NCBI GenBank assembly: GCA_913009315.1 | Contig: CAJVZA010000004.1 | Location: 1-53,286, forward strand | Direction: 5' to 3' | From: an uncultured Hippea sp. | GTDB taxonomy: Bacteria > Campylobacterota_A > Desulfurellia > JAADFJ01 | DNA: 53,286 nucleotides | Shown: positions 23,494-49,319 of the stretch, in pieces | Layout of the letters: every line of letters begins with the position of its first letter | Numbering within the stretch: the stretch's first letter is position 1 | The notes under the pieces: model-generated | The model's database searches: none | What the model saw: only the letters and a program-made list of their open reading frames with translations | Told to the model about the DNA's origin: nothing | Program-made: the position numbers and the translations under genes

Positions 23494-24420
23494 TTATACG
23501 GTATACCATTTCAGATCTTTTCGGACGATTAGATTAAGATTTTTAAGATAATATATATATGACATAGCTTCACCGAGCTGCAGTATAAGATCATCATCCG
23601 CGGTATGATTTCTGAAGATCATTCTTGCAGTTTCAAATATCGTCATAGGATTTGTTTTTAACATATAATAGGTTTTTTCAATTCGCTCTATATAGCTTCT
23701 TCTTAATTCCCTTATTCTCTCTTTAGGATTTTCCACAAGTTTTCCATGCGATCCGGCTATTAACACCGGAGCGATTGATTCAAGTTTATCCAAAGTTTCG
23801 AGATAATTTTTTATAGGATTGAAATTGCATTTTCCGACAGGGACACTTACCACAAATATTGTTCCCGGGTTGCTTGTTATATCGGCAAGAACAGCATCTC
23901 CGGAAAAAAGTATTCCTTCATCTTTAAGAAAAAACGACACCGAACCTGGAGTATGACCGGCCGTTCCAATTGTAATGAAGGTTCTGCCGTCCAGATCAAA
24001 AAGTTCTCCCTCGTTTATCGCTTCATAGACGGGTACAGAAATTTTTTTAAAAATTCTTTCGATTACATTAAGAATCCCCTGCACATACAGAGGCGGCAAA
24101 CCAAGCTTCAACAGATTTTTTTCAGCAATATCATTGCCGGGATATTTGTACATAAGCCAATCGGCATCTGCATCATTCAGAAAAAATCGGGAAAATTGTC
24201 TGTTTTTTGCAATTCCTATATGATCATCGTGTCCATGAGTAGCCAAAATTCTTAGTTTGTCGGTTTTTACTCCTGCTTCATTCAGCAATTCTGCAGTACT
24301 TTTTTGGTCAGGTCCTATGTCAATAGCAGTATCAGCTTTGGCAAAATAATATATAGAAACGGCTCCAACTGCGTAAGGGGTTGGAAGGTCGATCTTTTTT
24401 ACATAATCTGGCAGCAACAT
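23494..24420 (-). CDS. MBL-fold metallo-hydrolase
   Basis: The protein has about 308 residues. The metallo-beta-lactamase fold is shown by ATHGHDDHIG (HxHxDH), GTAGHTPGSVSFF (third His), FSGDAVLADI (bridging Asp) and AGSHGKLV (last His). A C-terminal helical region with winged-helix look (TIFETARMIFRN) matches the hydroxyacylglutathione-hydrolase-like/LACTB2 subgroup. The substrate is unknown. I chose ATG 24420 over the TTG at 24456 because that TTG is part of TTGACA of an apparent promoter and the extra 12 residues are not family-like. Confidence 0.75.
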   Translation of the reverse strand: MLLPDYVKKIDLPTPYAVGAVSIYYFAKADTAIDIGPDQKSTAELLNEAGVKTDKLRILATHGHDDHIGIAKNRQFSRFFLNDADADWLMYKYPGNDIAEKNLLKLGLPPLYVQGILNVIERIFKKISVPVYEAINEGELFDLDGRTFITIGTAGHTPGSVSFFLKDEGILFSGDAVLADITSNPGTIFVVSVPVGKCNFNPIKNYLETLDKLESIAPVLIAGSHGKLVENPKERIRELRRSYIERIEKTYYMLKTNPMTIFETARMIFRNHTADDDLILQLGEAMSYIYYLKNLNLIVRKDLKWYTV

Positions 24421-24428
24421 CTGCTTCA

Positions 24429-24456
24429 AGAATATTCCAAATATGGATTCTGTCAA
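24429..24456 (-). promoter_or_regulatory. promoter giving a near-leaderless mRNA for the MBL gene
   Basis: Reading the minus strand: TTGACA (24456-24451), 16-nt spacer, TATTCT (24434-24429), then 8 nt to ATG 24420. No ribosome site is present. A transcript would start within a base or two of the ATG. Confidence 0.55.
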
Positions 24457-24503
24457 CCGTGAGCTGCTGTAAAACTTATTAAAAGCATCTCTTTATTTGG
24501 CTT

Positions 24504-24533
24504 CTGTGAATATGTTTATTGCGCAGTGGTCTC
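24504..24533. repeat. REP-like palindrome family, right half
   Basis: CTGTGAATATGTTTATTGCG followed by CAGTGGTCTC matches the loop and right arm of the family. The left arm is degenerate. It lies between divergent genes, so it is not at a gene end here. Confidence 0.55.
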
Positions 24534-24596
24534 ATACGTTAATAGATCAATAGAGACATTCTTGATGTTTGCAATCGGCTTAATCATAACGCATAA

Positions 24597-24624
24597 TTGA
24601 CATGCAAACAGATATGAATAGAAT
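24597..24624 (+). promoter_or_regulatory. promoter giving a leaderless mRNA for the GT2 gene
   Basis: TTGACA (24597-24602), 16-nt spacer, TAGAAT (24619-24624), then exactly 6 nt to ATG 24631. Transcription would begin at the A of the ATG. No ribosome site is present. Confidence 0.6.
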
Positions 24625-24630
24625 CGTGCT

Positions 24631-25338
24631 ATGCAATTATCAGTCGTGGTGCCTGTTTATAATGAGGCGGAAAATTTGCCTATACTAACCGGCGAAATTA
24701 AAGAGGCGATTAAAAACTATAAAAATAAAGAGATCATATTTGTTGATGACCGAAGCACAGATAAAAGTCTAAGTATTATAAAAGAGATAAAGACGAATAA
24801 CAAAGATTTGAATATAAGAATAATATGCAGAACAAAAAGAGGCGGACTTTCTGCTGCGCTTGCCACAGGATTTCTTGCAGCAAACGGTGATATAATCATC
24901 AGTATAGACAGCGATCTTCAGAACGATCCGGCCGACATCCCAAAGCTTGTTTCTCAGATAGGAAAATATGATGTTGCTATCGGATGGAGAATGGAAAGAC
25001 ACGATCCGCTTATTAAAAAAATCTCATCAAAAGTTGCAAATTTTATAAGAAATAATGTCACACACGAAAATATCCATGATACCGGATGCACTCTCAAGGC
25101 TTACAAAAGAGAATTTCTGCTAAAATTAAAACTTTTTGACGGACTTCACCGGTTTTTACCTACGCTGCTCAAACTTGAAGGAGCAAAAGTGATAGAAGTT
25201 CCCGTCAAACATAGAGAAAGAAGGTTTGGAAAATCCAAATATCATCTGTTCAATCGTCTGATAGGCCCTATGATGGATCTGTTTGCAGTTCATTGGATGC
25301 AGAAACGCCATATTGATTTAAGTGCCGAAGAACTTTGA
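24631..25338 (+). CDS. family 2 glycosyltransferase (dolichyl/undecaprenyl-phosphate sugar synthase type)
   Basis: The protein has 235 residues. The DPM1/ArnC-like GT-A fold is seen from VVVPVYNEAENLP, IIFVDDRSTD, RGGLSAALATGF and IISIDSDLQNDPADIP (DxD metal site). A conserved DTGCTLKAYKREFL and KHRERRFGKSKYH complete it. There are no C-terminal membrane helices, unlike ArnC, so it is the short soluble form. It probably loads a sugar onto polyprenyl phosphate at the inner face of the membrane. It overlaps the next gene by 4 nt, and a GT39-type transferase follows, so the three likely act in one lipid or lipid-A modification pathway. Confidence 0.83.
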   Translation: MQLSVVVPVYNEAENLPILTGEIKEAIKNYKNKEIIFVDDRSTDKSLSIIKEIKTNNKDLNIRIICRTKRGGLSAALATGFLAANGDIIISIDSDLQNDPADIPKLVSQIGKYDVAIGWRMERHDPLIKKISSKVANFIRNNVTHENIHDTGCTLKAYKREFLLKLKLFDGLHRFLPTLLKLEGAKVIEVPVKHRERRFGKSKYHLFNRLIGPMMDLFAVHWMQKRHIDLSAEEL

Positions 25339-25604
25339 ACTACTCTTTTGACATCTGGCTAATAATTGGTTTTATCGCTCAAATAATATTCGGGGCACGG
25401 TTTTTTCTTCAATGGCTTGTTTCCGAGAAGCAGCATAAAAGTGTTATTCCGATAGGTTTCTGGTATTTATCAATAGTAGGCAGTCTTATGCTTTTAATAT
25501 ATGCCATACATATAAAAGATCCGGTTTTCATCCTGGGACAGGCAACCGGTTTATTTATCTACATCAGAAACCTTATGATGATACACAAAGAGAAAAAGAG
25601 GTGA
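25335..25604 (+). CDS. small membrane protein with lipid-A-disaccharide synthase N-terminal (LAB_N) domain
   Basis: The protein has 89 residues and three membrane helices. The LAB_N signature is clear: IAQIIFGARFFLQWLVSEKQ, then SVIPIGFWYLSIVGS and YAIHIKDPVFILGQ. This domain is found alone or fused to LpxB; its role is poorly defined. The TTG start (25335) overlaps the GT2 stop and the gene overlaps the next by 4 nt. Between a polyprenyl-phosphate glycosyltransferase and an ArnT-like enzyme it could help flip or handle the lipid-linked sugar, much as ArnE/ArnF do (inference). Confidence 0.75.
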   Translation: MNYSFDIWLIIGFIAQIIFGARFFLQWLVSEKQHKSVIPIGFWYLSIVGSLMLLIYAIHIKDPVFILGQATGLFIYIRNLMMIHKEKKR

Positions 25605-27121
25605 AGCATTCTTCAATGCTGCTTCTCGCAGTTTCGATACTCTTTCTGCTCTTTTTTCGATTGGGAAGCTATGGTCTGATAGAAACATCCGATGCCAGAT
25701 ATTCCGAAATTTCTCTTGAAATGGCCAACAGCGGCGATTATATAACACCAAGACTAAACGGTATCAAGCATTTTGATAAGCCTCCCCTTACGTATTGGCT
25801 GGCAGCAGCAGGCATAAAATTCTTAGGCAAAAACGAATGGGGAGTCAGAATCTTTCAAGGTATTATCGCATTTATAATTGTTCTATTCGTCTATCTGTTT
25901 GCCGGCAAATTTGTTCCGAGAGAAAATGCAGTCTATGCCGCTGTCTTTCTTGTCAGCATACCGATATTTTTCGGCAGCTCACATGTTTTGACAACGGATC
26001 TTCTAAACAGCTTTGCTACAACCGGCGCCCTCTTTTCATTTTTTCTGTGGTATAAAAAACGACAATTTATTTATCTGACACTGTTTTATGCAGCCATAGG
26101 TATCTCTTTTCTGATCAAAGGACCGATCGGACTATTTGTAACACTGCCGATTATTATTCTGTTTTTGATGACCGAACATAATCTTAAGGCAATTCTAAAA
26201 ATGAGACCATGGATGTTTGTTATCTCGCTTCTCATTGCAGCACCCTGGTATATAGCACTTATAAAGCAAAATCCGGGATTATTAAGTTATCTTATTGATA
26301 ACCAGCTTCTAAGCAGACTTCACAAAGGAGGGCTTGGCCACCCTCGTCCTATGCTTTACTATCTCTGGATGTTTCCGATAACGATGTTTCCAGCCGTAAT
26401 TCCTGCAGTTTTTCAAAAAAAACTGAATTCCTTCAAGAAATTTCTGCTGATTGCAGCTTTATGGCCGCCGATTTTTTTCTCTATTCCTGCAACAAAACTC
26501 CCGTTATATATATTGCCTTCAGCTCCATTTATTGCAATCTTGGCATCAATTAGCAGCATAAATCTTAAAAAATTCTCAAAATACGGAAGTATAATAATAG
26601 CACTCGTTTATCTTTTCGCTGCAGCTCTTTTCTATACCGGAACAATAAAACATATAGCAGAACAAAATAAGATTGCACTGCTCCTGTCCGTCTCCGCAGT
26701 TCTTATAATAATATTATACGCAATATCAAGAAATCGATTTGATAAACTAACGATATCAAGTTTTACAGTAGTTCCATTTGCAGTAACTATGCTTTTTCTA
26801 TCGCCTGTCGTATCGAACCTAAAAATCTATAAGCCGTTTATGAAGTATATAAACGCCGGAGATAAGGTTATTGAATATCGCTGTTTTGTAAGATCGATAC
26901 CGTTCTATCTAAATCATCCGGTAAAAACTGTAGGATTGCAGCAGGAGCTTCGGTTTGACAGCAAAAAGACTATAAAAAGGCTTGTAGTGTCGGAAAATAA
27001 TTTTTGGAAGTTATGGCAGAAGGAACCGCTAAAGGTAATAATAAACAGGGATGATTTGAGAAAATTCAGGCATTATACGGTTTTGGATTCCAAAAAGAAA
27101 CTTATTTTGATTAGTAACTGA
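25601..27121 (+). CDS. GT39/ArnT-like membrane glycosyltransferase
   Basis: The protein has 506 residues and 10-12 membrane helices. The N-terminal loop motif ETSDARYSEISLEM carries the Asp typical of ArnT/PMT enzymes (DEARYAEI in ArnT). HFDKPPLTYWLAA and the KGPIG loop after the sixth helix also fit. These enzymes move a sugar from polyprenyl phosphate to lipid A or to protein on the periplasmic side. The GTG start overlaps the LAB_N gene by 4 nt. The C-terminal 100 residues form a small periplasmic domain. With the two preceding genes it forms a compact lipid-A glycosylation unit; the sugar is unknown and no aminoarabinose synthesis genes are present. Confidence 0.82.
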   Translation: MKHSSMLLLAVSILFLLFFRLGSYGLIETSDARYSEISLEMANSGDYITPRLNGIKHFDKPPLTYWLAAAGIKFLGKNEWGVRIFQGIIAFIIVLFVYLFAGKFVPRENAVYAAVFLVSIPIFFGSSHVLTTDLLNSFATTGALFSFFLWYKKRQFIYLTLFYAAIGISFLIKGPIGLFVTLPIIILFLMTEHNLKAILKMRPWMFVISLLIAAPWYIALIKQNPGLLSYLIDNQLLSRLHKGGLGHPRPMLYYLWMFPITMFPAVIPAVFQKKLNSFKKFLLIAALWPPIFFSIPATKLPLYILPSAPFIAILASISSINLKKFSKYGSIIIALVYLFAAALFYTGTIKHIAEQNKIALLLSVSAVLIIILYAISRNRFDKLTISSFTVVPFAVTMLFLSPVVSNLKIYKPFMKYINAGDKVIEYRCFVRSIPFYLNHPVKTVGLQQELRFDSKKTIKRLVVSENNFWKLWQKEPLKVIINRDDLRKFRHYTVLDSKKKLILISN

Positions 27122-27400
27122 TGTTGCGCACTAAACGCAGCTGCAGTGGCAATAGCAACGTATAAGTACATCACATTAACACAGCAATTATATGTTAATT
27201 TGCCGCCTGAAGGGCAAAAAGACAAGGCATCATTTACTGCGTTGGAACCTTGCTGCCGTTGAGATAAATATTAGATATGAAAAATCTATTAGAAAGTATA
27301 ATATTTATCCATCAAATCATGCAGTTGATATATAGTTGTATTCAACTAACGATATTATATTAATTGACAATTGCCTTGCGGCTTTTATACTGAAAAGGCG

Positions 27401-30175
27401 ATGAAGAAAAAGTTGAGATCTATAACCGGCCAAAGACGTATCAGTTTCATAGCTTTAAGTGCAGTCGGAATTTTAGCTGTCATCTTCAGTTCAATTGTTG
27501 TGGTTTATGCATTACAGCTTTTTCATGCAGAAACCGCCGCATTTGCTAAGATTACAGGTACTTTAATAAATAATGTTCAACTTTCCGACACAGATAAAAC
27601 AAGGTTATACGATATACTCAAGCGTGATTTGAATAAACTGAATAGCAATCTGTTTATTGATCAGACAAAATTAAAAGCAATAAAATTAAAAATTATCAAA
27701 GCGGAAGCTTCAGGAGATAAGCAGGCAGCGCCTAATCTTTCATATGATATAGAGAAAATAGGCGAAGCCGGTCTGGAAAAATCTTATTTTACTTTGGCGA
27801 TAATTACAGCCTTACTTATCTTTCTGCTTTGTATTATCTATCTGTTTACAATCTTTTTACCGGACAGGCGCCTTCAGAATGCCATCAACAGCATAACCGC
27901 AAGTTTAGCCGAATTAGAAACAGGCAAATATCTAAATCAAAAGGAGATAGGGTTTCGGGAAACAGCTCAATTGATTAAACATACAAAAAGGGTAATCAAC
28001 AGAACTCTTGATATCAGTCGGATGCATGCTATGTTGAGCGCAGTGAATCAGGTGATGATAAAGGCGAAAACCGAATCTCAGATTTTCAGCGATATCTGCA
28101 AAATTTTTGTTGAACAGGGAAAATTCAGGCTTGCATGGATCGGTATTCTGGATGAAAAAACTCACATAACGCAAACATATTTCTGCGGGGATGAGAGTTA
28201 TGTAAATTTCGTAGTAAAATCTCTCAACAAAAATCTGTCCACCGGACCAACAAGTAAAGCTATAAAGAGGAAAAGCATCTTTATAAACAACGATACTGCC
28301 GGGAACCGCTTACTGAAACCATGGTCAAAAGAGATGTTGAGGAGAGATTATCTGTCAAGCGCCTCTTTGCCGATAATCAAGAAAGAGAAATTGATGGGTA
28401 TACTCAATATCTATACAAATAGATTGAACTTTTTCAGAAGAGAAAATTTTAATCTTCTCAACGAAATTGCTGATGATATTCACTTCGTTCTTGACAAAAT
28501 AGAGAATGAAAAATGGCAGAATATAACAATGGAAGCGTTGGAAAAAGGCTCATCATATATAGTTATTATAGATAAAAATTTGACAATAACCTACACCAAC
28601 AAGGCAGCCAATGAAATTTTTGCGGGAAATACCGAAGGTAAGCTTTCGGATGAACATTGCAATATAATCAATAACAGGCTCAAAAACAAACCGTTGACAA
28701 ATGAATTCTTTGATAACTTGCTGAAAAAGAAAAAGGCTTTTAACGATCTGCTGATATACACAAAAAAGGATGGCAGCTTGGCATATTTGGATACTAAAAT
28801 AACTCATTTTAAAATGAGAGAAAATCATGATTATTTTATCTTGCATGGTAAAGAGATTACAAAAGAGGTTAAACTGCAAAATTCCATAAATAAGATGCTT
28901 TTTTATGATTTTGAAACAAATTTGCCGAATAGACATGTTTTTTTGAAGTCAGCCGAATCGTACATAAAAACAACAGGTCTGAACAAGCAGGCTGCATTAG
29001 TAATAATCGATCCCCGCAATTTTGCCTATATCAATGACGTTCAGGGGTTTGAGAACGGCGGCAGACTTCTCAAAGCAATTGGGGTCAGATTAACCAAAAT
29101 ATTAAAAAGCAGCGATTTGGTAGCAAAAGCGTCCGGAAGCAGATTCTATGTTTTAGTTAAGGAGATAGACGTAAAATACAGTATGCCGGACATTTTAAAA
29201 AGAATTCAAAATGTGTTGGACAAGCCGTTTAACATAAATTCGAAAGAGATAAGATTATCGTTTCACATCGGTATATCCATATATCCGAATGATGCTCAAA
29301 ATGCATCGGATCTTTTATCGCGCGCAGAAACCGCATTGTTTTATAATAAAAAATCCAAGTCCGAAAAACCATACAGTTTTTTTACTGAAGATATTGAGAG
29401 GGATATAAAAAAATCCGAACAGTTGAAAGAAGCACTGTCAAATGCCCTGAAACAAAAAGAGTTTTTCCTGCATTATCAACCCTATTTTGAACCGATATCA
29501 AAAACGATTTCAGGTGCCGAAGCACTTCTGCGCTGGAAAAAAGACGGCAAGACAATTATGCCTGCGGAATTTATTCAGACTTTAGAAAAAAGCAACATGA
29601 TCGCAGATGTAGAGAAATGGATCATAGATCAGACATGCTCAGATATGAGGGAATGGCAGGAAAAAGGACTAAAACTCACACCGATCTCCATTAATATATC
29701 GCCTAAGAGCTTTACCAGGCCGGATCTGACACATAATATATTCTCTGCAGCAGAAAGATATCGGATAGATCCGGCTCTTCTAACGGTAGAAATTACAGAA
29801 AGACTATTTATGTCCGACTTAGATTATTCAAAAAAAATTCTTGCTAATTTGAAAGAAAAGGGAATCAGAATAGCCATTGATGATTTCGGAACCGGTTTTT
29901 CCTCTTTATCCTACTTAGAGCAGCTGCCAATCGATATACTGAAAATAGATATCTCTTTTGTGCAAAAGATAACAAGTGACAGGCGCTCTGCTGCTATTGT
30001 TCAGTCTATTATTGCCGTAGCTCAGGCACTTTCTTTAAGCACGGTAGCCGAAGGCGTGGAAACCGTCGAACAGTTAGATATTCTGACAAAGCTGAACTGC
30101 GATAATATACAGGGATGGCTTTTTGCAAAAGCGATGCCTAAAGATCAATTTGAACTGTTTCTGACTTCTTCATAG
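27401..30175 (+). CDS. membrane GAF-PAS-GGDEF-EAL protein, probable c-di-GMP phosphodiesterase
   Basis: The protein has about 924 residues. Two membrane helices (about 15-40 and 130-155) enclose a periplasmic helical segment. Then come a short linker, a GAF domain (about 210-365), a PAS domain (about 375-495), GGDEF (about 510-660) and EAL (about 670-924). The GGDEF active site reads SGSRF (about 577), so cyclase activity is very unlikely. The EAL domain is intact: EALLRW (about 706), INISPKSF, EITERLF, IDDFGTGFSSLSYL, DILKID, VAEGVET and QGWLF. It should hydrolyse c-di-GMP, with the GGDEF part perhaps sensing GTP. ATG 27401 follows AAAGG; a TTG at 27371 would add 10 residues. It joins the HD-GYP protein as the second phosphodiesterase of the window. 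Confidence 0.85.
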   Translation: MKKKLRSITGQRRISFIALSAVGILAVIFSSIVVVYALQLFHAETAAFAKITGTLINNVQLSDTDKTRLYDILKRDLNKLNSNLFIDQTKLKAIKLKIIKAEASGDKQAAPNLSYDIEKIGEAGLEKSYFTLAIITALLIFLLCIIYLFTIFLPDRRLQNAINSITASLAELETGKYLNQKEIGFRETAQLIKHTKRVINRTLDISRMHAMLSAVNQVMIKAKTESQIFSDICKIFVEQGKFRLAWIGILDEKTHITQTYFCGDESYVNFVVKSLNKNLSTGPTSKAIKRKSIFINNDTAGNRLLKPWSKEMLRRDYLSSASLPIIKKEKLMGILNIYTNRLNFFRRENFNLLNEIADDIHFVLDKIENEKWQNITMEALEKGSSYIVIIDKNLTITYTNKAANEIFAGNTEGKLSDEHCNIINNRLKNKPLTNEFFDNLLKKKKAFNDLLIYTKKDGSLAYLDTKITHFKMRENHDYFILHGKEITKEVKLQNSINKMLFYDFETNLPNRHVFLKSAESYIKTTGLNKQAALVIIDPRNFAYINDVQGFENGGRLLKAIGVRLTKILKSSDLVAKASGSRFYVLVKEIDVKYSMPDILKRIQNVLDKPFNINSKEIRLSFHIGISIYPNDAQNASDLLSRAETALFYNKKSKSEKPYSFFTEDIERDIKKSEQLKEALSNALKQKEFFLHYQPYFEPISKTISGAEALLRWKKDGKTIMPAEFIQTLEKSNMIADVEKWIIDQTCSDMREWQEKGLKLTPISINISPKSFTRPDLTHNIFSAAERYRIDPALLTVEITERLFMSDLDYSKKILANLKEKGIRIAIDDFGTGFSSLSYLEQLPIDILKIDISFVQKITSDRRSAAIVQSIIAVAQALSLSTVAEGVETVEQLDILTKLNCDNIQGWLFAKAMPKDQFELFLTSS

Positions 30176-30195
30176 GATGCCGTCCGAGATATAAA

Positions 30196-30225
30196 GCTGT
30201 AAATCTGTTTATTGTGCAGCGGTCT
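30196..30225. repeat. REP-like element coding the end of hpt
   Basis: GCTGTAAATCTGTTTATTGT followed by GCAGCGGTCTT matches the loop and right arm. The left arm (30176-30195) has diverged. On the minus strand this arm reads AAG ACC GCT GCA CAA TAA, the last codons of hpt. It lies between convergent genes. Confidence 0.65.
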
Positions 30226-31991: not shown

Positions 31992-31993
31992 AT

Positions 31994-32022
31994 TGTCAAA
32001 CCCTGCTATTTATCTGTATAAT
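31994..32022 (+). promoter_or_regulatory. promoter giving a leaderless mRNA for the DNA glycosylase
   Basis: TTGTCA (31994-31999), 17-nt spacer, perfect TATAAT (32017-32022), then exactly 6 nt to ATG 32029. The -35 lies 3 bp from the start codon of the divergent J-domain gene, so the two starts share about 37 bp. Confidence 0.65.
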
Positions 32023-32028
32023 GTAAAT

Positions 32029-32700
32029 ATGGCGGAAAAAAGAAAAAAATCAAGACTGCTTGAGCTGTTTAAAACGCTCAACGAAAATTTCGGAAAAATG
32101 TATTGGTGGCCTGCCGACTCGCTTGATGAGATGGTTATAGGTGCCATTTTAACTCAAAATACAAGCTGGAAAAATGTTGAAAAGGCGATAAGCGTACTCA
32201 AAAAAGATAACATGGACAATTTTGAAACCATTCTTTCTTTGGATAAAAATCTGCTCGAGAGTCTCATAAGACCTGCAGGATTTTATAGACAAAAGGCAGA
32301 ACGATTGAAAACAGCTGCACGGTTCTTTTTGAAAAATCGTTTTGTCGACAGGGATATGCTGCTTTCTCTAAACGGCATAGGCAAAGAAACAGCTGATTCG
32401 ATTCTGCTCTACGGTTTCAACAAGCCTGTTTTTGTTGTTGATGCATATACAAAACGGATATTGACAAGACATAAGATCATAACAAATTCCGATTATGATT
32501 CGGTTCAGCAACTATTTCACGATAATCTTTCCAAATCGGTCAAGCTTTTTAACCAATATCATGCTTTAATAGTTAAAACTGCAAAACTTTACTGCAAAAA
32601 AAAGCCGATATGTGATAAATGTCCGCTTTTGAGCGACCTTATCGACAACAAAATTTCTCCGCTTGCCATTATGAGACCACTGCACAATAAAAAGCTGTGA
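32029..32700 (+). CDS. endonuclease III-related DNA glycosylase (MagIII-like)
   Basis: The protein has about 223 residues of the HhH-GPD superfamily. The helix-hairpin-helix is LNGIGKETADSILLYGF with the catalytic Asp in FVVDAYTKR. This combination resembles the MagIII/Nth-related group that removes alkylated or damaged bases. The iron-sulfur loop is incomplete: CKKKPICDKC gives three Cys, and the fourth expected after about five residues is absent. The last nine residues (MRPLHNKKL) and the stop come from a REP-like palindrome, so the native C-terminus may have been replaced. ATG 32029 was chosen over the upstream frame because it fits the promoter and the family start. Confidence 0.78.
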   Translation: MAEKRKKSRLLELFKTLNENFGKMYWWPADSLDEMVIGAILTQNTSWKNVEKAISVLKKDNMDNFETILSLDKNLLESLIRPAGFYRQKAERLKTAARFFLKNRFVDRDMLLSLNGIGKETADSILLYGFNKPVFVVDAYTKRILTRHKIITNSDYDSVQQLFHDNLSKSVKLFNQYHALIVKTAKLYCKKKPICDKCPLLSDLIDNKISPLAIMRPLHNKKL

Positions 32701-35164: not shown

Positions 35165-36649
35165 TCAATGTTCATAATCTTCTTGAACGGCAGGCTTTAT
35201 ATAACGTATGAATGCCTGTTCAACGTTTATATTTTCATTCTTTTCCGAAACCTTGGCGATAATCTCCTTGTCTGTTCCTGACGCCAGAACTTTTCCCTCA
35301 TGCATAAAGATTATGCTTTTGCATCTTGCAGCCTCATCAAGATAATGTGTTGAAAAAAGCACACTTCTTCCGGTTAGTGCGAACTGTTTTATCAATTCCC
35401 AAAACTGCCGGCGGGTCACAGGGTCAACACCGCTTGTAGGTTCATCAAGAAAAAGAAGTTTCGGAAAGTGCAGAATGGCTGATGCAAATGCAACACGCTG
35501 TCTTATTCCAATAGGCAGATCCTCGGTCAAATAGTTTAAAAATGATCTCAATTTCAGCGTACCGGTCACGATATCAATTCTTTTCGGCAAATTTTTAACC
35601 CTGTAAATTGTTCCAAAAAGCCTGAGATTTTCTTTAACACTCATATCATTGTATAAACTAAATTTCTGCGACATATATCCGATATCACTGCGCATATCCC
35701 GGCCAGATTTGCCTAAAATCTGAAATTTCCCCGATGTTGTTTTCAGAACTCCTGTCAAAGATTTGATAAGCGTTGTTTTTCCCGCTCCATTTGCTCCGAT
35801 AAGTCCCACTATGTCGCCCGATTTCATCGTTATAGAAACATCTTTCATTGCGAAAAATTTACCGTATACCTTGGTAAGCTTATCTGTTTTGATAACAACA
35901 TCGGGCAGTGTGATTAAGTCAAGAGGCAGTTTGAAGTTGATTTTGTCAGATGAAATCGATTTCAGAAACAGCTCTTCCGGCGACGCCAGTTCCTCAGACT
36001 TTCCGGAGGCAACAATTTTGCCGTTGTAGATAAGCGCCAGATCGGTACAGTTTGATGATTCGTATATATATGAAGTAGATATTATAAACGTTGTGCCGTT
36101 ATCCTTATTAAATCTGTATATAAGCCGCCAGAGTTCAAGTCTGCTTAGAGGGTCAACACCTGTTGTAGGTTCATCCAGAATGATTATTTCAGGTCTTTGA
36201 ACAATCGTTGATATCAGGCCAAGTTTCTGACTCATTCCGCCGGAAAGGTTTTTCTGTTTTCTGTTTTTGAATTTGTAGAGCCCCGAAGCCCTGTAAAGTT
36301 CATCATGGAACTTCTTATCACTTTTGCCCGAAAGATCGCTGAAAAACTCAAGATTTTCTTTTACGCTAAGCTCATCGTAAAGATTCGCACCAAGTCCCTC
36401 TGGCATAAATGCGATTTCACCTTCAGCCGTACCGCCGGAATTCTGCTTCATATTAAAATAGCTGATTTTCCCCGAGCTAATCTTTTCAATTGATGCTATC
36501 ACCTTCAAAAATGTAGATTTGCCTGCTCCGTCCGGCCCCACAATGCCGAATATAGACCCTTTTTTTATCTTGATCGATACTGAATCGAGCGCTCTTACCT
36601 TGCCGTAGAATTTCGTTACCGAATCTGCCTCTATTACGATTTTGTCCAT
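35165..36649 (-). CDS. tandem ABC transporter ATPase (YbhF-like, two nucleotide-binding domains)
   Basis: The protein has 494 residues containing two complete NBDs. The first has Walker A GPDGAGKST, signature LSGGMSQKLGL and Walker B IIILDEPTTGVDP. The second has Walker A GANGAGKTT, a divergent signature LPIGIRQRVAFA and Walker B LLFLDEPTSGVDP with STHYLDEA. The fusion and the neighbours match YbhF of the YbhFSR exporter. The changed second signature suggests unequal ATP sites. Its start overlaps the HlyD-like gene by 16 nt. Confidence 0.9.
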   Translation of the reverse strand: MDKIVIEADSVTKFYGKVRALDSVSIKIKKGSIFGIVGPDGAGKSTFLKVIASIEKISSGKISYFNMKQNSGGTAEGEIAFMPEGLGANLYDELSVKENLEFFSDLSGKSDKKFHDELYRASGLYKFKNRKQKNLSGGMSQKLGLISTIVQRPEIIILDEPTTGVDPLSRLELWRLIYRFNKDNGTTFIISTSYIYESSNCTDLALIYNGKIVASGKSEELASPEELFLKSISSDKINFKLPLDLITLPDVVIKTDKLTKVYGKFFAMKDVSITMKSGDIVGLIGANGAGKTTLIKSLTGVLKTTSGKFQILGKSGRDMRSDIGYMSQKFSLYNDMSVKENLRLFGTIYRVKNLPKRIDIVTGTLKLRSFLNYLTEDLPIGIRQRVAFASAILHFPKLLFLDEPTSGVDPVTRRQFWELIKQFALTGRSVLFSTHYLDEAARCKSIIFMHEGKVLASGTDKEIIAKVSEKNENINVEQAFIRYIKPAVQEDYEH

Positions 36650-37671
36650 TTTTTTGACGGATCGGTTTTTATTGTAACATCGGCAATCATTCCGTTTTTT
36701 AGCAGAAGGCCTCGATTTCTCAATGCTATATGTATTTCGTAAACAAGAGCAACCCTCTGTTTTTTTGTTTCAACGTTTTTCGGTGTAAACTCCGCCTGAC
36801 TCGCTATGTATGAAACTTTGCCTGTAAACGGTTTTTTTGTTCCTATATAAATTCTTGCCGGCTGACCTAATTTAAGCTGTCTAAGCTGATCTTCTGCTGC
36901 AAACATTTTCAGGTAAAGCTTTTCGGGATTAATAATTGAAACAACAGGCATTCCGGTCGCAACAACCTCACCTGTATAATGAAATTTGCCGGCAATAATA
37001 CCGTTCACCGGACTTTTTATTTTACTGTTGCCAATCTCAAGAAGAATAATGTTTAATTGGTGTTTTAATGCCTCAATCTTTTCTTTCTGCATTCTGATTT
37101 CAATTATTTTTGATTTTGATGCAATATATGCGTTGTAAGCTGACCGGTACAGGCTTAATGCGGAATCGGCTTTCTGTTTTAGGCTTAAATAGTTGGATTC
37201 TATTCTGTCGGCTTCTCTTTTAGATACCGAACCTCCTTTAAGCAATCTGGTAAAACGTCTATAGTCAGCCTGAGCATTTTTTACAAGCGGCAAAAGCATT
37301 TTATAGTTTGAGTAAAATGAGATAGATTCATTTTTTAAACGGATTATTTCAGATGGAATGGCCTTGGAGATTTCATCCAATCTGCTTTGCTCTGCTGAAA
37401 TTTGAGCCTGCTCAGCCTGCTCTTTTTGAATAAGTTCTTTATCATCAATGGAAAAAAGAATTTGATTGATTTTTACCGATGATCCTCTTGATACATAGAC
37501 GTTTCTTATCCTGCCCGGGAGCTTCGAGGAAGCCATGATCTCGTCTCCGGTTATTGTTCCGGACGAATAAATAAACCCTGTCTGCACGGGTTTCTGCCTT
37601 GATAAAAAGAGAGCAAAAGCTGCAAAAACAGATAAAACAATCACCAACAGAGAAATATTGCTTTTGCGCAT
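36634..37671 (-). CDS. HlyD-family periplasmic adaptor (YbhG-like)
   Basis: The protein has 345 residues. A single N-terminal membrane anchor (about 8-24) precedes a lipoyl-like half-motif (MASSKLPGRIRNVYVSRGSSVKINQIL). A long coiled-coil hairpin of about 130 residues follows, then the second lipoyl half (KSPVNGIIAGKFHYTGEVV) and a beta-barrel region. It bridges the inner-membrane ABC pump to an outer-membrane channel; no TolC-like gene is in the window. It is the first gene of the four-gene exporter operon and has the TTGACA/TAGAAT leaderless promoter. Confidence 0.88.
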   Translation of the reverse strand: MRKSNISLLVIVLSVFAAFALFLSRQKPVQTGFIYSSGTITGDEIMASSKLPGRIRNVYVSRGSSVKINQILFSIDDKELIQKEQAEQAQISAEQSRLDEISKAIPSEIIRLKNESISFYSNYKMLLPLVKNAQADYRRFTRLLKGGSVSKREADRIESNYLSLKQKADSALSLYRSAYNAYIASKSKIIEIRMQKEKIEALKHQLNIILLEIGNSKIKSPVNGIIAGKFHYTGEVVATGMPVVSIINPEKLYLKMFAAEDQLRQLKLGQPARIYIGTKKPFTGKVSYIASQAEFTPKNVETKKQRVALVYEIHIALRNRGLLLKNGMIADVTIKTDPSKKWTKS

Positions 37672-37677
37672 TCAGTA

Positions 37678-37705
37678 ATTCTATAGATTATCTGATTTTT
37701 GTCAA
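37678..37705 (-). promoter_or_regulatory. promoter giving a leaderless mRNA for the exporter operon
   Basis: Minus strand: TTGACA (37705-37700), 16-nt spacer, TAGAAT (37683-37678), then exactly 6 nt (TACTGA) to ATG 37671. The same hexamers and spacings occur at 24597-24624 on the plus strand. Confidence 0.65.
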
Positions 37706-38650: not shown

Positions 38651-38676
38651 TTGACATTATAATCTTAAGTTATAAT
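38651..38676 (+). promoter_or_regulatory. promoter with short leader before yggU
   Basis: TTGACA (38651-38656) and TATAAT (38671-38676) are 14 nt apart, shorter than ideal; a second TATAAT lies at 38658-38663. ATG 38688 is 11 nt beyond the -10 and has no ribosome site, so the leader would be about 4-5 nt. Confidence 0.5.
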
Positions 38677-38687
38677 ATCTTCATCAT

Positions 38688-38972
38688 ATGGCTGAAGATA
38701 GAAAGGATGCAAAAGTACGATTTGCCGTGCATGTCAAGCCTAATGCAAGTAAGATTGCTGTTGAAAAAGATAATGACAATGTTAGAATATCGCTTACGGC
38801 ATCGCCTCAGAAAAGCCTTGCCAACCGTCAGCTCATTGAAATATTGTCAAAGGAACTTAGAATTGCAAAATGCTGTATTAGCATTGTAAGGGGTTTGAAG
38901 AGTCACGATAAACTGATAGAAATTAATGATATTACTGAAAAAAGATTAAATAATTGGATGGAGGGTATTTGA
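38688..38972 (+). CDS. yggU: DUF167/YggU-family protein
   Basis: The protein has 94 residues. Family hallmarks are VHVKPNASK near the N-terminus, VRISLTASPQKSLANRQLIEILSKEL in the middle and VRGLKSHDKLIEI near the end. The fold is small alpha/beta; the molecular role is unknown. It starts a long plus-strand run and its stop overlaps the next start by one base (TGATG). Confidence 0.8.
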   Translation: MAEDRKDAKVRFAVHVKPNASKIAVEKDNDNVRISLTASPQKSLANRQLIEILSKELRIAKCCISIVRGLKSHDKLIEINDITEKRLNNWMEGI

Positions 38973-39737: not shown

Positions 39738-39769
39738 TTCAGGACTACTAAAATTTAAAAGAGGTTAAA

Positions 39770-42876: not shown

Positions 42877-42877
42877 T

Positions 42878-43801: not shown

Positions 43802-44545
43802 ATGAATTTTTCAGGTAAAACCGCTTTCGTTACGGGAGCCACAAGAGGAATTGGAAGAGCTGTCGCAGAGGCACTTTTACAAAACGGCCTGAAGGTTATA
43901 ATAGGTTATGCTCATAACGATGAACTTGCCGATGAAATTGTGAAAAATGCCTTGCGTAATGGAAGCGAAGCTATTGCCGCAAAGATTGATCTATCCGATA
44001 TCGCTTCAATTGAAAAGTCGGTAAAGGAGCTCGCATTAAAAACGGGGACAATTGATTATTTGGTAAACAATGCCGGTATTGCCGATGACGGCTTGCTTTT
44101 AATCTCTTCTGCAGATAAAATAGCTAATGTGATTAATACAAACCTCTTCTCAGGAATGTTGGTTGCAAAGACAGTTCTCAGAGGAATGATTAAAAAGCGC
44201 TTCGGCAGCATAGTTAACATGAGTTCTATTGTAGGAGAAGATGGAAATGGCGGACAGACCGCCTATGCTGCGAGTAAAGCAGGTCTGACAGGTTTTACCA
44301 AATCGCTGGCAAAAGAGGTAGCATCCAGAAATATAAGAGTAAATGCGATTGCTCCGGGATTTATAGAAACCGATATGACCGGCGAGCTGTCCAAAAATGA
44401 TAAACTTGGCATAATCGGTAAAATTGCATTGAAAAGACTTGGAAGGCCGGAAGATGTTGCAAATCTCGTCCTGTTCTTGCTTTCAGATGAAGCAAGCTAT
44501 ATAACAGGCGATGTTATAAGAATAGACGGTGGTTTACATTTATAA
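43802..44545 (+). CDS. fabG: 3-oxoacyl-ACP reductase
   Basis: The protein has 247 residues of the SDR family. The NADPH site is VTGATRGIGRAVAEAL, NNAGIADD follows, and the catalytic Ser-Tyr-Lys lie in MSSIVGEDG and TAYAASKAGLTG. The C-terminal VLFLLSDEASYITGDVIRIDGGLHL is standard. It directly follows the fabD stop. Confidence 0.95.
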   Translation: MNFSGKTAFVTGATRGIGRAVAEALLQNGLKVIIGYAHNDELADEIVKNALRNGSEAIAAKIDLSDIASIEKSVKELALKTGTIDYLVNNAGIADDGLLLISSADKIANVINTNLFSGMLVAKTVLRGMIKKRFGSIVNMSSIVGEDGNGGQTAYAASKAGLTGFTKSLAKEVASRNIRVNAIAPGFIETDMTGELSKNDKLGIIGKIALKRLGRPEDVANLVLFLLSDEASYITGDVIRIDGGLHL

Positions 44546-44557
44546 AAGGAGGATAAA

Positions 44558-44791
44558 ATGAGCTTGGAAAAGGATGTAATAGCGATCATTATTGATCAGC
44601 TTGGGGTTGAAGAATCAGAGGTAACAAACGAGTCAAGATTTGTAGAAGATTTAGGCGCCGATTCCCTTGATACTGTTGAACTTGTTATGGCATTTGAGGA
44701 AAAATTCGGGATTTCGATACCTGATTCGGATGCTGAGAAAATTAAAACTGTTCAGAGTGCAATAGACTATATAAGCGAACACAAAGCGTAA
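44558..44791 (+). CDS. acpP: acyl carrier protein
   Basis: The protein has 77 acidic residues. The phosphopantetheine Ser is in [20 protein letters not shown] strong AAAGGAGG site precedes ATG 44558, in keeping with the high expression of ACP. It lies 12 nt after fabG. Confidence 0.96.
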
Positions 44792-44800
44792 GGAGATAAA

Positions 44801-46024
44801 TTGAGGCGTGTTGTAATTACAGGTGTAGGTGCAATTACACCTGTTGGAAATAGCGCACAAGAGAGTTTTGAAGGATTGATTAACGGTATCTCCGGAGTAT
44901 CTAAAATAAGTCGTTTTGATACAACGGATTTTAAATGTAAGATTGCTGCCGAAATAAAAAACTTCAAGCTTGATTTTGTAGAAAAAAAAGAAATCAAGAA
45001 GATGGATCTTTTTACTCAGTACGCCCTCGCTGCATCGGTAGAAGCATGGGAAGATTCAGGAATAATCAATTACTCCCCCGATCAGGTCGGTGTATCAATA
45101 GGTACCGGAATTGGAGGATTGGGACCAATCGAGAAATATACGCTTACTCTTTATAAACGCGGAGAAAGAGGTGTCTCACCGTTTTTTATACCTATGTCTA
45201 TTTCCAATATGTCGGCATGTCGGGTATCAATGAAATATAATTTTCAGGGACCTAATTTTTCTGTTGCTACTGCTTGTGCAACCGGTACTCATTCTATCGG
45301 TTTGGCAGCAAGATCCATACAGTGCGGAGACGCCGATATTTTTGTGACAGGCGGTTCCGAATCTACAATTACTCCACTGTCGCTGGCCGGTTTTACTGCT
45401 TCAAAAACACTTTCTGCGCATAATGACGAACCTGAGAGGGCATCAAGACCGTTTGATAAAGATAGAGACGGGTTTGTTATGGGTGAAGGCTCCGGAATAT
45501 TGGTGCTCGAAGAGTATGAGCATGCAGCTAAAAGAGGTGCTCGTATATATGCAGAAATCATAGGGTTTGGTATGAGCGGAGATGCTTATCATATAGTTGC
45601 GCCTTCACCGCATGGCAAAGGTGCGGTATTGGCAATGAAAAAGGCACTGAAGGACGCTGAGATAGCGGCAGGAGATGTTGAGTATATAAACGCTCATGGC
45701 ACCTCCACGGTTATGAATGATATTTACGAAACGGAAGCAATTAAGTCTGTATTCGGCGAAGATGCGAAACGGCTAATGATCAGTTCGACAAAATCCGCCA
45801 CAGGTCATCTTCTCGGCGCGGCAGGCGGAATAGAAGCTGTTTTTAGTGCTATCGCTATTGACAAATCAATTCTGCCTCCTACAATAAATCTCGATAATCC
45901 TGATCCGCAATGCGATCTGGATTATATTCCCAAAACAGCGCGGAGAGTGAAGGTAGATATTGTGATGAGCAACTCTTTCGGGTTTGGTGGTACAAATGCT
46001 GTATTGCTTTTTAGGAGAGTATAA
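44801..46024 (+). CDS. fabF: beta-ketoacyl-ACP synthase II
   Basis: The protein has 407 residues. The catalytic Cys lies in ATACATGTHSIG and the two His in NAHGTSTVMND and KSATGHLLGAAGG. The start is TTG 44801, with AAGGAG 6 nt upstream and the standard RRVVITGVGAITPVG N-terminus. The stop codon (46022-46024) is immediately followed by the first base of a tRNA gene. Confidence 0.95.
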   Translation: MRRVVITGVGAITPVGNSAQESFEGLINGISGVSKISRFDTTDFKCKIAAEIKNFKLDFVEKKEIKKMDLFTQYALAASVEAWEDSGIINYSPDQVGVSIGTGIGGLGPIEKYTLTLYKRGERGVSPFFIPMSISNMSACRVSMKYNFQGPNFSVATACATGTHSIGLAARSIQCGDADIFVTGGSESTITPLSLAGFTASKTLSAHNDEPERASRPFDKDRDGFVMGEGSGILVLEEYEHAAKRGARIYAEIIGFGMSGDAYHIVAPSPHGKGAVLAMKKALKDAEIAAGDVEYINAHGTSTVMNDIYETEAIKSVFGEDAKRLMISSTKSATGHLLGAAGGIEAVFSAIAIDKSILPPTINLDNPDPQCDLDYIPKTARRVKVDIVMSNSFGFGGTNAVLLFRRV

Positions 46025-46101
46025 GGGCCCATGGCTCAATTGGTTAGAGCAACCGGCCCATAACCGGTTGGTTCCAGGTTCGAGTCCTGGTGGGCCCACC
46101 A
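46025..46101 (+). tRNA. tRNA with CAU anticodon (tRNA-Ile2 or elongator tRNA-Met), unusual C33
   Basis: The 77-nt cloverleaf folds cleanly: acceptor GGGCCCA/TGGGCCC, D stem GCTC/GAGC with GG in the loop, anticodon stem ACCGG/CCGGT, T arm CCAGG-TTCGAGT-CCTGG, and encoded CCA. The anticodon loop is CCCATAA, so the anticodon is CAT. It is not an initiator (G1-C72 pair). The GGGCCC acceptor and A73 favour the lysidine-type Ile2 tRNA, but Met cannot be excluded. Position 33, almost always U, is C. The gene sits with 0 nt after fabF and 6 nt before the NIF3-like gene, so it must be cut from the operon mRNA. Confidence 0.93.
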
Positions 46102-46107
46102 AAACAG

Positions 46108-46917
46108 ATGTCTGTATTGATTGATGATCTAATAATATCTCTTGAAAAAAAATTTCCTCCTAATCTATCTGCCGAATGGGATAGGTCGGGATGGCAATAT
46201 AAGGGAAACAATGAAAACACGGAATCAATAGTTATCTGTCTTGATGTTACTAAAAGGAGCGTGGAAACGGCAAAAAAAAATCAGGCGAATTTGATTCTCT
46301 CGCACCATCCAATTATGTTCAATATGCCGGATTTTCTGGACTATAGATTGTATCCGGCATCAGCTCTTACGGAATCTATTGGTTCTAATATTAATATCTA
46401 TTCACTTCATACCAACATAGACGCTGCGTCAGGAGGTATGAACGATTATCTCGCAGCGCTGTTCGGAATGGAAAAGATAGAAATACCACAAGTTTCAGGA
46501 TGTTCCGATAAAGAGTTGAGTTTCTCGAGAATAGGAATAATACAACCGGTCGGATTTGATGAAATAGTCCAAAGATGTTATAACCTGTTTGGCATAAGCT
46601 CATTAAATTTGATCGGCAGCAGTTCTTCAATCATAAAACGACTGCTTGTAGTATCAGGTTCGGGAAGTTCTATCATCAGAAAATTAAACCCAAAATCTTT
46701 TGATCTGGCCATTACCGGCGATCTAAAATATCACGATGCACTGTTTTTCAGAGAAAACGGCTATTGCGTACTCGACATCGGTCATTTTATAGAACAAAAA
46801 CTTTTTACAGAAATTATACAAAATTATTTGGAGGAAATTTATGGAAATCGATTGTTATATATTAAATCAATTGAAGAAAACTGTTTGAAAGGGGTTGGTA
46901 GTGAATCAAACAATTAA
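46108..46917 (+). CDS. NIF3-like / GTP cyclohydrolase I type 2 family protein
   Basis: The protein has 269 residues. Metal-binding His and Asp/Glu are seen in LSHHPIMF, SLHTNIDAASGGMNDYLA, DLAITGDLKYHD and VLDIGHFIEQKL. NIF3-family proteins are dinuclear-metal proteins of uncertain role. ATG 46108 is used; the upstream frame runs into the tRNA gene and is spurious. No ribosome site is present, because the 5' side is tRNA, so processing of the tRNA leaves an mRNA with only a 6-nt leader. The pair with the following coiled-coil zinc-ribbon gene is conserved in many bacteria. Confidence 0.85.
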   Translation: MSVLIDDLIISLEKKFPPNLSAEWDRSGWQYKGNNENTESIVICLDVTKRSVETAKKNQANLILSHHPIMFNMPDFLDYRLYPASALTESIGSNINIYSLHTNIDAASGGMNDYLAALFGMEKIEIPQVSGCSDKELSFSRIGIIQPVGFDEIVQRCYNLFGISSLNLIGSSSSIIKRLLVVSGSGSSIIRKLNPKSFDLAITGDLKYHDALFFRENGYCVLDIGHFIEQKLFTEIIQNYLEEIYGNRLLYIKSIEENCLKGVGSESNN

Positions 46918-47611
46918 AACGCTTTTAGAGATACAGGAAATCGATAAACATGTTCATGAATTAAAAGAAAATATTAGAGCGATGGATGTCAATGTTAAGA
47001 CGAAAGAGAACGTTATCAAGATACTCATAAAAGAACTTGAGGAAATTGATGCAAAAATCATCACCTTGAAAGAAGACAGAAAATATAATGAGCAGCTTGT
47101 CGAGGATAAAAATGATCAAATTAAAACGCTGGACAACAAGAGTGCACTTGTAAAAAACACAAAGGAGCAAAAGGCTTTAGAAGTTGAAATGAGTATGGCA
47201 AATACGTCGGTAGAAAAAATAGAGGATCAAATAGTGTCACTGCTTTCCGATATCGATACATATATAGAAAAGAGGGACATCAAGCAGAAAGAGGCGGATT
47301 CTCTGAAAGCCGAATACGAACTGTTGAGCAAAACTACCGATAATAAAATAAAAAAAATTACCGTCGCCATTAATAACTATTTAAAGAAGAGATCAGGCCT
47401 TTTTAACAACATTGATGACACAACTACAACACAATATGAAGAGATAAACAGATGGGCAGAAGGAAATGTTATGTCGGAAATAAAATCAGAATCGTGCATG
47501 GGATGTTTCTTGATGCTGCCTCCACAAGTGTCGGCAACCGTTATGGAAACCGAACAACTGGTATTTTGTCCCAACTGCGGCAGAATACTTTACATATATG
47601 ACGAATCCTGA
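46901..47611 (+). CDS. coiled-coil hairpin protein with C4 zinc ribbon (CT398/PF02591 type)
   Basis: The protein has about 236 residues. Residues 5-170 form a long antiparallel coiled coil with heptads and almost no Pro or Gly. The C-terminus is a zinc ribbon, CMGCFLMLPPQ and FCPNCGRILY. The family is usually paired with NIF3, as here, and is thought to bind RNA or ribosome-associated factors; its function is not settled. GTG 46901 has GAAAGGGG 6 nt upstream; it overlaps NIF3 by 17 nt. The 3' end overlaps the convergent nfo gene by 22 nt. Confidence 0.82.
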   Translation: MNQTIKTLLEIQEIDKHVHELKENIRAMDVNVKTKENVIKILIKELEEIDAKIITLKEDRKYNEQLVEDKNDQIKTLDNKSALVKNTKEQKALEVEMSMANTSVEKIEDQIVSLLSDIDTYIEKRDIKQKEADSLKAEYELLSKTTDNKIKKITVAINNYLKKRSGLFNNIDDTTTTQYEEINRWAEGNVMSEIKSESCMGCFLMLPPQVSATVMETEQLVFCPNCGRILYIYDES

Positions 47612-48474
47612 AAAAGACCGGATAGCGTTTCAAGATCCTTTTTGTATGCATTGAGCCCCCCGGGAGTTTCCAGAATCATCGGCAGGACAGTCAAATGACT
47701 ATCGTTAAGCAAAAATCTAAATGCATCGGTACCAATAAACCCTTCTCCTATATTTGCATGTCTGTCAACCCTGCTTGCAAATTTGGTTTTTGAATCGTTT
47801 ATATGGAATGCTTTAAGATATCTCAAACCGACAATATTCTCGAATCTGCCCATTGTTTCGTTATAGCTTTCTTTGTTTCTGATGTCATAGCCTGCAGCGA
47901 AAATATGGCATGTGTCTATACATACGCCTATTGATTCATTACTTGTGAGCTCAATTATTTTCGCAAGATGCTCGAATTTATACCCTACATTGGTGCCCTG
48001 ACCCGCAGTAGTTTCAATCAGAATCATCAGATTGCTTTCGCTCGGATTTTCTTTTGATACAGCTGATTTAAGAGAGTCGGAAATGAGTTTCAGACAGGCA
48101 TCATCTCCTATTCCAAGATGACTTCCCGGATGGAAAATAAGATATTCGGCGCCAAGCTTTTTTGCACGCTTGATCTCATCTGAAAATGCTGCTGCTGAGC
48201 GTGCTCTTTTTGTCTCATCAGGATTGCCCAGGTTTATCAGATAAGAATCATGTATTAGCAGATATCTTATTTTGCCTGTTTCACGTTTCTCGATAAAATT
48301 TTCAGCTGCCTGATCGGTTATATCGGACGCACTCCAGCGCATCTGATTCTTTGAAAAGATCTGTATGGCATGGCATCCCAGAATTTTTGCCTGTTTTATT
48401 GAATTTTCAAAACCGCCCGAAATGGAGACGTGAGCACCCAAAAACGGTCCTTGCAATATATCTTTTTTGTTCAT
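47590..48474 (-). CDS. nfo: endonuclease IV
   Basis: The protein has about 294 residues, an AP endonuclease with a three-zinc TIM barrel. Metal ligands are recognisable in LIHDSYLINLGNP, FHPGSHLG, LIETTAGQGTNVG, CIDTCHIFAAGYD, FHINDSK, VDRHANIGEG and ILETPG. It nicks DNA 5' to abasic sites. ATG 48474 was chosen; the in-frame extension to 48513 lies inside the promoter. It may complement the MagIII-type glycosylase at 32029 in base excision repair. The 3' end overlaps the opposing gene by 22 nt. Confidence 0.92.
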   Translation of the reverse strand: MNKKDILQGPFLGAHVSISGGFENSIKQAKILGCHAIQIFSKNQMRWSASDITDQAAENFIEKRETGKIRYLLIHDSYLINLGNPDETKRARSAAAFSDEIKRAKKLGAEYLIFHPGSHLGIGDDACLKLISDSLKSAVSKENPSESNLMILIETTAGQGTNVGYKFEHLAKIIELTSNESIGVCIDTCHIFAAGYDIRNKESYNETMGRFENIVGLRYLKAFHINDSKTKFASRVDRHANIGEGFIGTDAFRFLLNDSHLTVLPMILETPGGLNAYKKDLETLSGLFQDSSYM

Positions 48475-48485
48475 TATGGAATATA

Positions 48486-48513
48486 ATTGTACTATCATAA
48501 GGAGATAATTCAA
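48486..48513 (-). promoter_or_regulatory. promoter with very short leader for nfo
   Basis: Minus strand: TTGAAT (48513-48508), 16-nt spacer, TACAAT (48491-48486), then 11 nt to ATG 48474. The leader would be about 4-5 nt and there is no ribosome site. Confidence 0.45.
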
Positions 48514-48553
48514 GAATATGAATGATTCCCCCGATTTTTATGGGATATAAATA

Positions 48554-48581
48554 TTGCATAATAGTAAAATATTATTATTAT
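48554..48581 (+). promoter_or_regulatory. promoter giving a leaderless mRNA for the U32 operon
   Basis: TTGCAT (48554-48559), 16-nt spacer, TATTAT (48576-48581), then exactly 6 nt to ATG 48588. No ribosome site is present. The region is AT-rich, so the match carries less weight than the GC-bearing boxes elsewhere. Confidence 0.5.
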
Positions 48582-48587
48582 TTAAGC

Positions 48588-49319
48588 ATGAGAGAGAATA
48601 AAAGTTTAGAAATTGTTTCACCGATCTGCAGTGTTGAGGATATTAAGGTGCTGGAGAATTATTCAGACGGTTTTTATTTCGGAATGGCCGGCTTTAGTCA
48701 TTCTTCCAAAAGTTTTGAAATTGATAAACGGGAGATAGAAGGCTTACGTAAAGCGACATCTAAAAAGCTTTACTGCGCTTTCAACAGGATGCCTTATACG
48801 GCAGACGAAGAGCTGCTTCTGAAAAATATTGCATCTGTTTCAGAGTTAGTAGATGCGGTTATAATCCAGGACGCAGGACTGATAAATTCGGCTGCAAGAC
48901 TGTTGCCTGTTCACCTCTCAGTAGGAGTTTCCGTTATAAGTTACCAGGAAGCTGTATTTTATAAGAATATAGGCGCTTCAAGAGTAATTGTTCCGCCGTC
49001 TGTAATGCCGGATGAAATAGCGGCTATCTCGTCCGTTTTGGATGTAGAGGTTTTTGTCTCAGGCAATTTATGCAGAGCTCTTCAGATGGGTAAATGCTGG
49101 TGGGACAGCTACGAGAGAAAAAGCAGTGCCAAACGATTTGGAGTTTGCAGCAAACCATGCAAACATATTACGGGATTGACCGTTATGGGAGATGATTTGG
49201 AATTTATAAAAGCGATGATCTCATCGGGAGCTAAGTCTCTAAAGGTTGCCGGAAGAGGTGATATTAAAGAAGTAGCAGAAAATTGCAAAAGAATAGGGGG
49301 CATAATAGCATGGAATTAG
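48588..49319 (+). CDS. short peptidase-U32-family protein (first of three)
   Basis: The protein has about 243 residues, shorter than most U32 proteins. The family core is visible in VDAVIIQDAGL, LPVHLSVGVSVISYQEAVFYKNIGASRVIVPP and DVEVFVSGNLCRALQMGKCW. The four-Cys iron-sulfur pattern follows as C-x7-C (GNLCRALQMGKCWW), then GVCSKPC. The name U32 peptidase is historical; characterised members (UbiU/V, RlhA, TrhP) are iron-sulfur proteins that hydroxylate quinones or RNA. ATG 48588 was chosen because it fits the promoter and the family start. It overlaps the next gene by 10 nt. Confidence 0.78.
   Translation: MRENKSLEIVSPICSVEDIKVLENYSDGFYFGMAGFSHSSKSFEIDKREIEGLRKATSKKLYCAFNRMPYTADEELLLKNIASVSELVDAVIIQDAGLINSAARLLPVHLSVGVSVISYQEAVFYKNIGASRVIVPPSVMPDEIAAISSVLDVEVFVSGNLCRALQMGKCWWDSYERKSSAKRFGVCSKPCKHITGLTVMGDDLEFIKAMISSGAKSLKVAGRGDIKEVAENCKRIGGIIAWN

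Follow-up and report, generated by a model that had tools for sequence, protein, structure and literature searches.

Start Codon-Proximal Promoters Point to a Leaderless Minority Mode of Expression in Hippea and the Class Desulfurellia

In the genome of this uncultured Hippea sp., a minority of first cistrons is preceded by ordinary sigma-70-type promoters whose -10 boxes end 6-9 nt before the start codon. Such promoters probably give rise to leaderless mRNAs, and the arrangement appears to be a minority mode of expression that is conserved in the genus and in the class to which it belongs, the Desulfurellia of NCBI's Campylobacterota. Judging from comparisons of genome sequences, the probability of this reading is roughly 0.88. 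The promoter geometry, the peak in promoter-to-start distance, the absence of SD sequences, and the conservation among relatives are direct observations. For any single gene, further promoters upstream may also give leadered transcripts.

Start Codon-Proximal Promoters in the Window

The window is the whole 53,286-nt stretch of DNA that was analyzed, and the gap is the number of nucleotides between the end of the -10 box and the start codon. A sequence-only reading of the window had named four genes whose -10 box ends exactly 6 nt before the ATG, and this is the case for all four. The GT2 gene, which encodes a family-2 glycosyltransferase (PF00535; plus strand, 24631-25338), and the gene for an HlyD-family membrane-fusion protein (minus strand, 36634-37671) had been said to share identical hexamers, spacer and gap on opposite strands; both are exactly TTGACA-16-TAGAAT-6-ATG (24597..24633 and 37669..37705, respectively). 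The start codon assignments of these two genes are secure because an in-frame TAG lies 12 nt upstream of the GT2 ATG, an in-frame TGA abuts the HlyD ATG (3 nt upstream), and no alternative start lies between in either gene. The HhH-GPD DNA glycosylase gene (plus strand, start 32029) carries TTGTCA-18-TATAAT-6-ATG at 31993..32031. Its gap had been read correctly, but the -35 box begins at 31993 rather than 31994 and the spacer is 18 nt; in-frame starts also occur further upstream in this ORF. The U32-peptidase-family gene (plus strand, 48554..48590) has TTGCAT at 48554, TATTAT after a 16-nt spacer, a gap of 6 and its ATG at 48588, with the positions and gap as described earlier. Two in-frame ATGs, 48 and 66 nt before this start, make it less certain. 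None of the four had been credited with a ribosome site, and in-register SD complementarity is indeed at most 3 nt at each of them.

Three further genes had been described as near-leaderless. The gap of 8 holds for MBL, a metallo-beta-lactamase-fold gene (PF00753; minus strand, start 24420) with TTGACA-16-TATTCT-8-ATG at 24418..24456, and the gap of 11 holds for the nfo-like gene of the AP endonuclease 2 family (minus strand, start 48474), which has TTGAAT-16-TACAAT-11-ATG at 48472..48513. The nfo-like promoter is weaker (score 6.1), with a predicted leader of about 5 nt; it and U32 are weak sites and individually less certain. The yggU-like gene (DUF167; plus strand, start 38688) is better read with a gap of 9 than with the proposed 11, as TTGACA-16-TAATAT-9-ATG at 38651..38690. 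The window also holds cases beyond those listed earlier, all on the plus strand: a near-leaderless GAF/PAS/GGDEF/EAL gene starting at 27401 (TTGACA-16-TATACT-9-ATG, 27364..27403), a DDE transposase gene starting at 483 (TTGACA-17-TATAAT-7-ATG, 447..485), and a histidine kinase gene with a GTG start at 13154 (TTGCAA-17-TAAAAT-6-GTG, 13119..13156). MBL and GT2 form a divergent pair (24420-24631), each with its promoter fused to its start codon, and this arrangement is kept in two congeners (G001 and G002, below).

Leaderless candidates are more frequent in the window than in the genome (6 of 25 compared with 40 of 538 first cistrons, p = 0.007). The pattern was first noticed in the window, and this richness is possibly due to chance, the window having been picked by the pattern itself.

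Promoter-to-Start Distance Across the Genome

The distance profile covers 1.7185 Mb of the window's 1.744-Mb genome (G000). Within it, 1,475 genes were called with a simple codon-pair model that is blind to upstream signals; starts and operons are computational, and first-cistron status was inferred from gene spacing alone. The promoter model (TTGACA/TATAAT) was trained solely on SD-bearing first cistrons and then applied to the full set of 538 first cistrons, whether or not they carry an SD. A genome-wide peak of -10 boxes at 6-8 nt from the start codon had been predicted, and the profile of about 1.72 Mb contains a sharp peak at 6-9 nt. Specifically, strong promoters number 17, 10, 10, and 6 at gaps of 6, 7, 8, and 9, or 43 compared with 4.4 expected. 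The background at gaps of 10-19 is 1.1 strong promoters per gap, so that gap 6 alone gives 17 against 1.1 (Poisson p = 5e-15).

The distribution of distances is bimodal: after the peak at 6-9 nt, counts fall to a trough at 10-17 and rise again near 28-31, where the leadered genes lie. When the best promoter of each first cistron is taken (n = 538), 52 lie at gaps of 5-9, 19 at 10-16, and 139 at 17-45, and 328 first cistrons have no recognizable promoter. An SD match of 3 nt or less is found in 47 of the 52 at gaps of 5-9, and 77 of the 139 at gaps of 17-45 have an SD of at least 5 nt. The genes with recognizable promoters thus form two classes, either leaderless or with a leader of about 20-25 nt that contains an SD. 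Candidate leaderless genes make up about 10% of first cistrons, or about 25% of those with a recognizable promoter within 45 nt. Among the 253 SD-less first cistrons, TANNNT occurs 25 times at gap 6, 15 times at gap 7, and 14 times at gap 8 compared with a mean of 7.8, whereas SD-bearing genes show a depletion of the motif at gaps under 12. This mutual exclusion of the SD and the proximal -10 box is partly geometric, because both occupy the same bases, and is not independent evidence.

Operon-internal genes have almost no excess, with 5 strong promoters at gaps of 5-9 vs. 40 for first cistrons, and first cistrons account for 40 of the 49 strong candidates at called starts. The start codons of these candidates are ATG in 46 cases, GTG in three, and TTG in none, although 9% of all called starts are TTG. 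The base at -1 is T in 55% compared with 42%, and the pyrimidine preference is suggestive but small. A looser count that allowed one -35 mismatch and any ATG gave a weak excess only, at gaps of 7-8, because intragenic matches swamp the signal. The exact arrangement TTGACA-16-TAGAAT-6-ATG occurs three times in the genome, with none in the reversed control; two copies are in the window, and the third precedes a protoglobin/PsiE-domain gene on contig C6. The spacer is 16 nt in 56% of modeled promoters, and the sigma-70 preference of this genome is 16 rather than 17 nt. The 16-nt spacer shared by GT2 and HlyD is not a special device, since it is the genome's own promoter consensus. A common function was looked for among the annotated leaderless candidates and none was found.

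SD-led initiation is the dominant mode in this organism. The genome-wide start profile has a strong SD peak in both first and internal cistrons, and about half of the first cistrons lack an SD. In a lineage in which leaderless initiation dominates, leaderless genes would form about 20% or more of all genes, compared with candidates in about 52 of 538 first cistrons here. Leaderless first cistrons as such are supported by the genome-wide peak and by conservation in orthologues, but the suggestion that leaderless initiation is routine in the lineage holds only for a minority, since about 10% of first cistrons look leaderless. The usual apparatus for SD-led initiation looks intact, because the anti-SD tail CACCTCCTTT is present in the 16S rRNA of class relatives and ribosomal protein S1 has six S1 domains. 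A search for 16S rRNA in the MAG and two congeners found none. Ribosomal protein S1 was considered as a possible cause of the pattern, and it is not truncated, since its six domains lie in one 654-codon frame on contig C72. In one class relative (G004), the 16S gene spans 1,659 bases compared with a model of 1,533 positions, which suggests internal insertions.

Conservation in Congeners

The arrangement was compared with the nearest congener (G001) and with a more distant one (G002) whose proteins are 65-83% identical. For an unbiased set, every TTGACA-(16,17)-TANNNT-(6-8)-ATG in G002 was taken, which gave 24 matches and none in the reversed control. Nine of the 24 precede genes whose start aligns with that of a G000 orthologue; the remainder are short frames, matches inside genes, paralogues, or genes without a G000 match. 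All nine orthologues in G000 have TTGACA-16-TANNNT-(6-9)-ATG. Across the nine pairs, identity of the -35 box is 54/54 and the spacer length is always 16, while the spacer sequence drifts (5-13 of 16 bases identical) and the gap varies only between 6 and 9. The retention of this geometry while the spacers drift reflects purifying selection on the distance from promoter to start codon.

The individual genes of the window vary in how far their geometry can be followed. GT2 keeps it in both congeners, and HlyD has a gap of 6 in G001 and a gap of 7 with TACAAT in G002; upstream of the -35 box, the sequences of both genes are unalignable in G002. The gap of MBL is 8 in G001 and 7 in G002, and that of yggU is 9 and 7, respectively. 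The gaps of yggU, HlyD, MBL, and one small gene vary by 1-2 nt from species to species without leaving the range of 6-9, which would be expected if selection acts on the start point rather than on a fixed spacing. The DNA glycosylase gene keeps its geometry in both congeners, and TATAATGTAAATATG is invariant in G001 and G002. The EAL/GGDEF gene is the same in G001, and in G002 a start located 24 nt further upstream is served by TTGACT-17-TATTTT-7-ATG. U32 is identical in G001 only, and G001 is too close for a strong test. The G001 orthologue of U32 (contig C87, 241-954) contains a TAG in frame within the region that matches, reflecting either decay or an assembly error.

Interpretation and Alternative Explanations

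In sigma-70 promoters, transcription usually begins at the seventh base after the -10 box. A gap of 6 would place +1 on the A of the AUG, and gaps of 7-9 would give leaders of 0-3 nt. Transcription of the candidate genes is thus predicted to start at the A of the AUG or no more than about 3 nt from it, and ribosomes would initiate on the 5'-terminal AUG without SD pairing. Leaderless mRNAs enter translation through 70S ribosomes or with the assistance of IF2. Under this model, the roughly 10% of first cistrons that are leaderless would coexist with the dominant SD-led mode.

An AT-rich genome often places TANNNT before ATG, and the original four genes could have been coincidences that were picked out. 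The motif is common upstream of first cistrons (3-4% per position), and pairs of a -10 box and an ATG with a loose -35 box are found at all gaps genome-wide. Chance does not, however, account for the sharpness of the gap-6 peak against all other gaps, the lack of a comparable excess in internal genes, or the nine of nine orthologues that keep the geometry despite drifting spacers. It is refuted as a general explanation and very improbable overall; single weak cases such as U32 may still be chance. An error in the called starts is just as improbable. If the true start codons lay downstream, the mRNAs would have short leaders and normal initiation, and starts were indeed called computationally, with in-frame GTG or TTG codons present downstream in GT2 and HlyD. 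Against this, in the protein read from the ATG the glycosyltransferase Pfam domain already begins at residue 4, alignments with orthologues extend from residue 1, and both G001 and G002 retain the ATG but not the bases upstream of it.

A somewhat less remote, though still unlikely, explanation is that the proximal promoters are real and the main mRNA comes from a promoter further upstream, with non-SD initiation on a leadered message and only a minor leaderless transcript. Some upstream regions are long enough for this (395 nt for HlyD and 381 nt for yggU), and about half of the first cistrons lack an SD in any case. However, the loss of alignable sequence above the -35 boxes of GT2 and HlyD in G002 argues against this explanation, and no second strong promoter was identified in the 60 nt that precede the GT2, HlyD, or MBL starts. 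Leaderless transcription from the proximal promoters therefore remains the preferred reading.

Distribution in the Class and Comparison With Known Systems

When the pattern was counted at gaps of 6-8 and 12-14 in 25 genomes of the class, the window's genus gave 73 vs. 27 and the other three families gave 48 vs. 24, 155 vs. 104, and 43 vs. 27. The excess at gaps of 6-8 is thus present in all four families and largest in the window's genus. Beyond the genus, sequences were read in one distant family, represented by G009, in which the peak at gaps of 6-9 is also present in the 400 kb read (37.4% G+C). Within these 400 kb, eight candidates have a G009 homologue aligned near the start, and few show the geometry there, indicating that the set of leaderless genes turns over between families. 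A broader proposal is that the fusion of promoter and start codon is a selected, ancestral expression mode of the whole class, retained for a housekeeping core and used at several times the level reported for the sister class in the same phylum. Examples of this core would be an amino-acid kinase, alanine racemase, YggU, the glycosyltransferase, and the exporter. We consider the case for this proposal to be evenly balanced.

Leaderless genes are known from several other bacteria. In Deinococcus-Thermus, TANNNT-led leaderless genes make up about 30% of ORFs and have a weak need for a -35 box (PMC12340547; de Groot et al. 2014). As in that group, the candidates described here have a -10 motif just a few bp before the ORF and no SD, and they coexist with SD-led genes; unlike in that group, they comprise about 10% of first cistrons and have a strong TTGACA -35 box and a 16-nt spacer. 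Caulobacter crescentus is a proteobacterial-type diderm with a similarly sizeable leaderless minority, in which 375 leaderless mRNAs represent 9.6% of CDSs and an SD is found at 24.6% of initiation sites (PMC4117421). Those mRNAs were mapped by 5' ends and ribosome profiling, whereas the candidates in Hippea are predicted from sequence, and here the SD dominates. Of the 953 bacterial genomes surveyed by Zheng et al. 2011, 207 had TA-like signals, Aquificae and some deltaproteobacteria among them (PMC3160421). The signal lies at the same distance as here, with the T of TANNNT about 12 bp upstream. In that survey, 8 of 33 deltaproteobacterial genomes averaged 15.8% (range 5.7-20.6%), and the epsilonproteobacteria had 2.9% in 2 of 26 genomes (PMC3160421). 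Given the Caulobacter and deltaproteobacterial values, the earlier view that such a density would be unusual in a diderm was overstated. The level here is higher than that reported for the sister class epsilonproteobacteria. In Campylobacter jejuni, about 20 leaderless mRNAs have been predicted (PMC11955535); some leaderless genes are predicted in both members of the phylum, with more in Hippea. No report of leaderless genes in the Desulfurellia (Hippea, Desulfurella) was found in the literature searched, so this is apparently an unrecorded lineage for a known phenomenon.

Overall, these results reveal no new mechanism and add a diderm lineage within the Campylobacterota to the bacteria with leaderless initiation as a standing minority mode. 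Gene callers tuned to the SD will misplace starts in MAGs of this group. Moreover, the comparative signature of a fixed distance from -10 box to ATG amid drifting surroundings can be used on uncultured genomes without RNA data. If the mode is ancestral and class-wide, the culturable Hippea and Desulfurella would be diderm models for natural leaderless translation.
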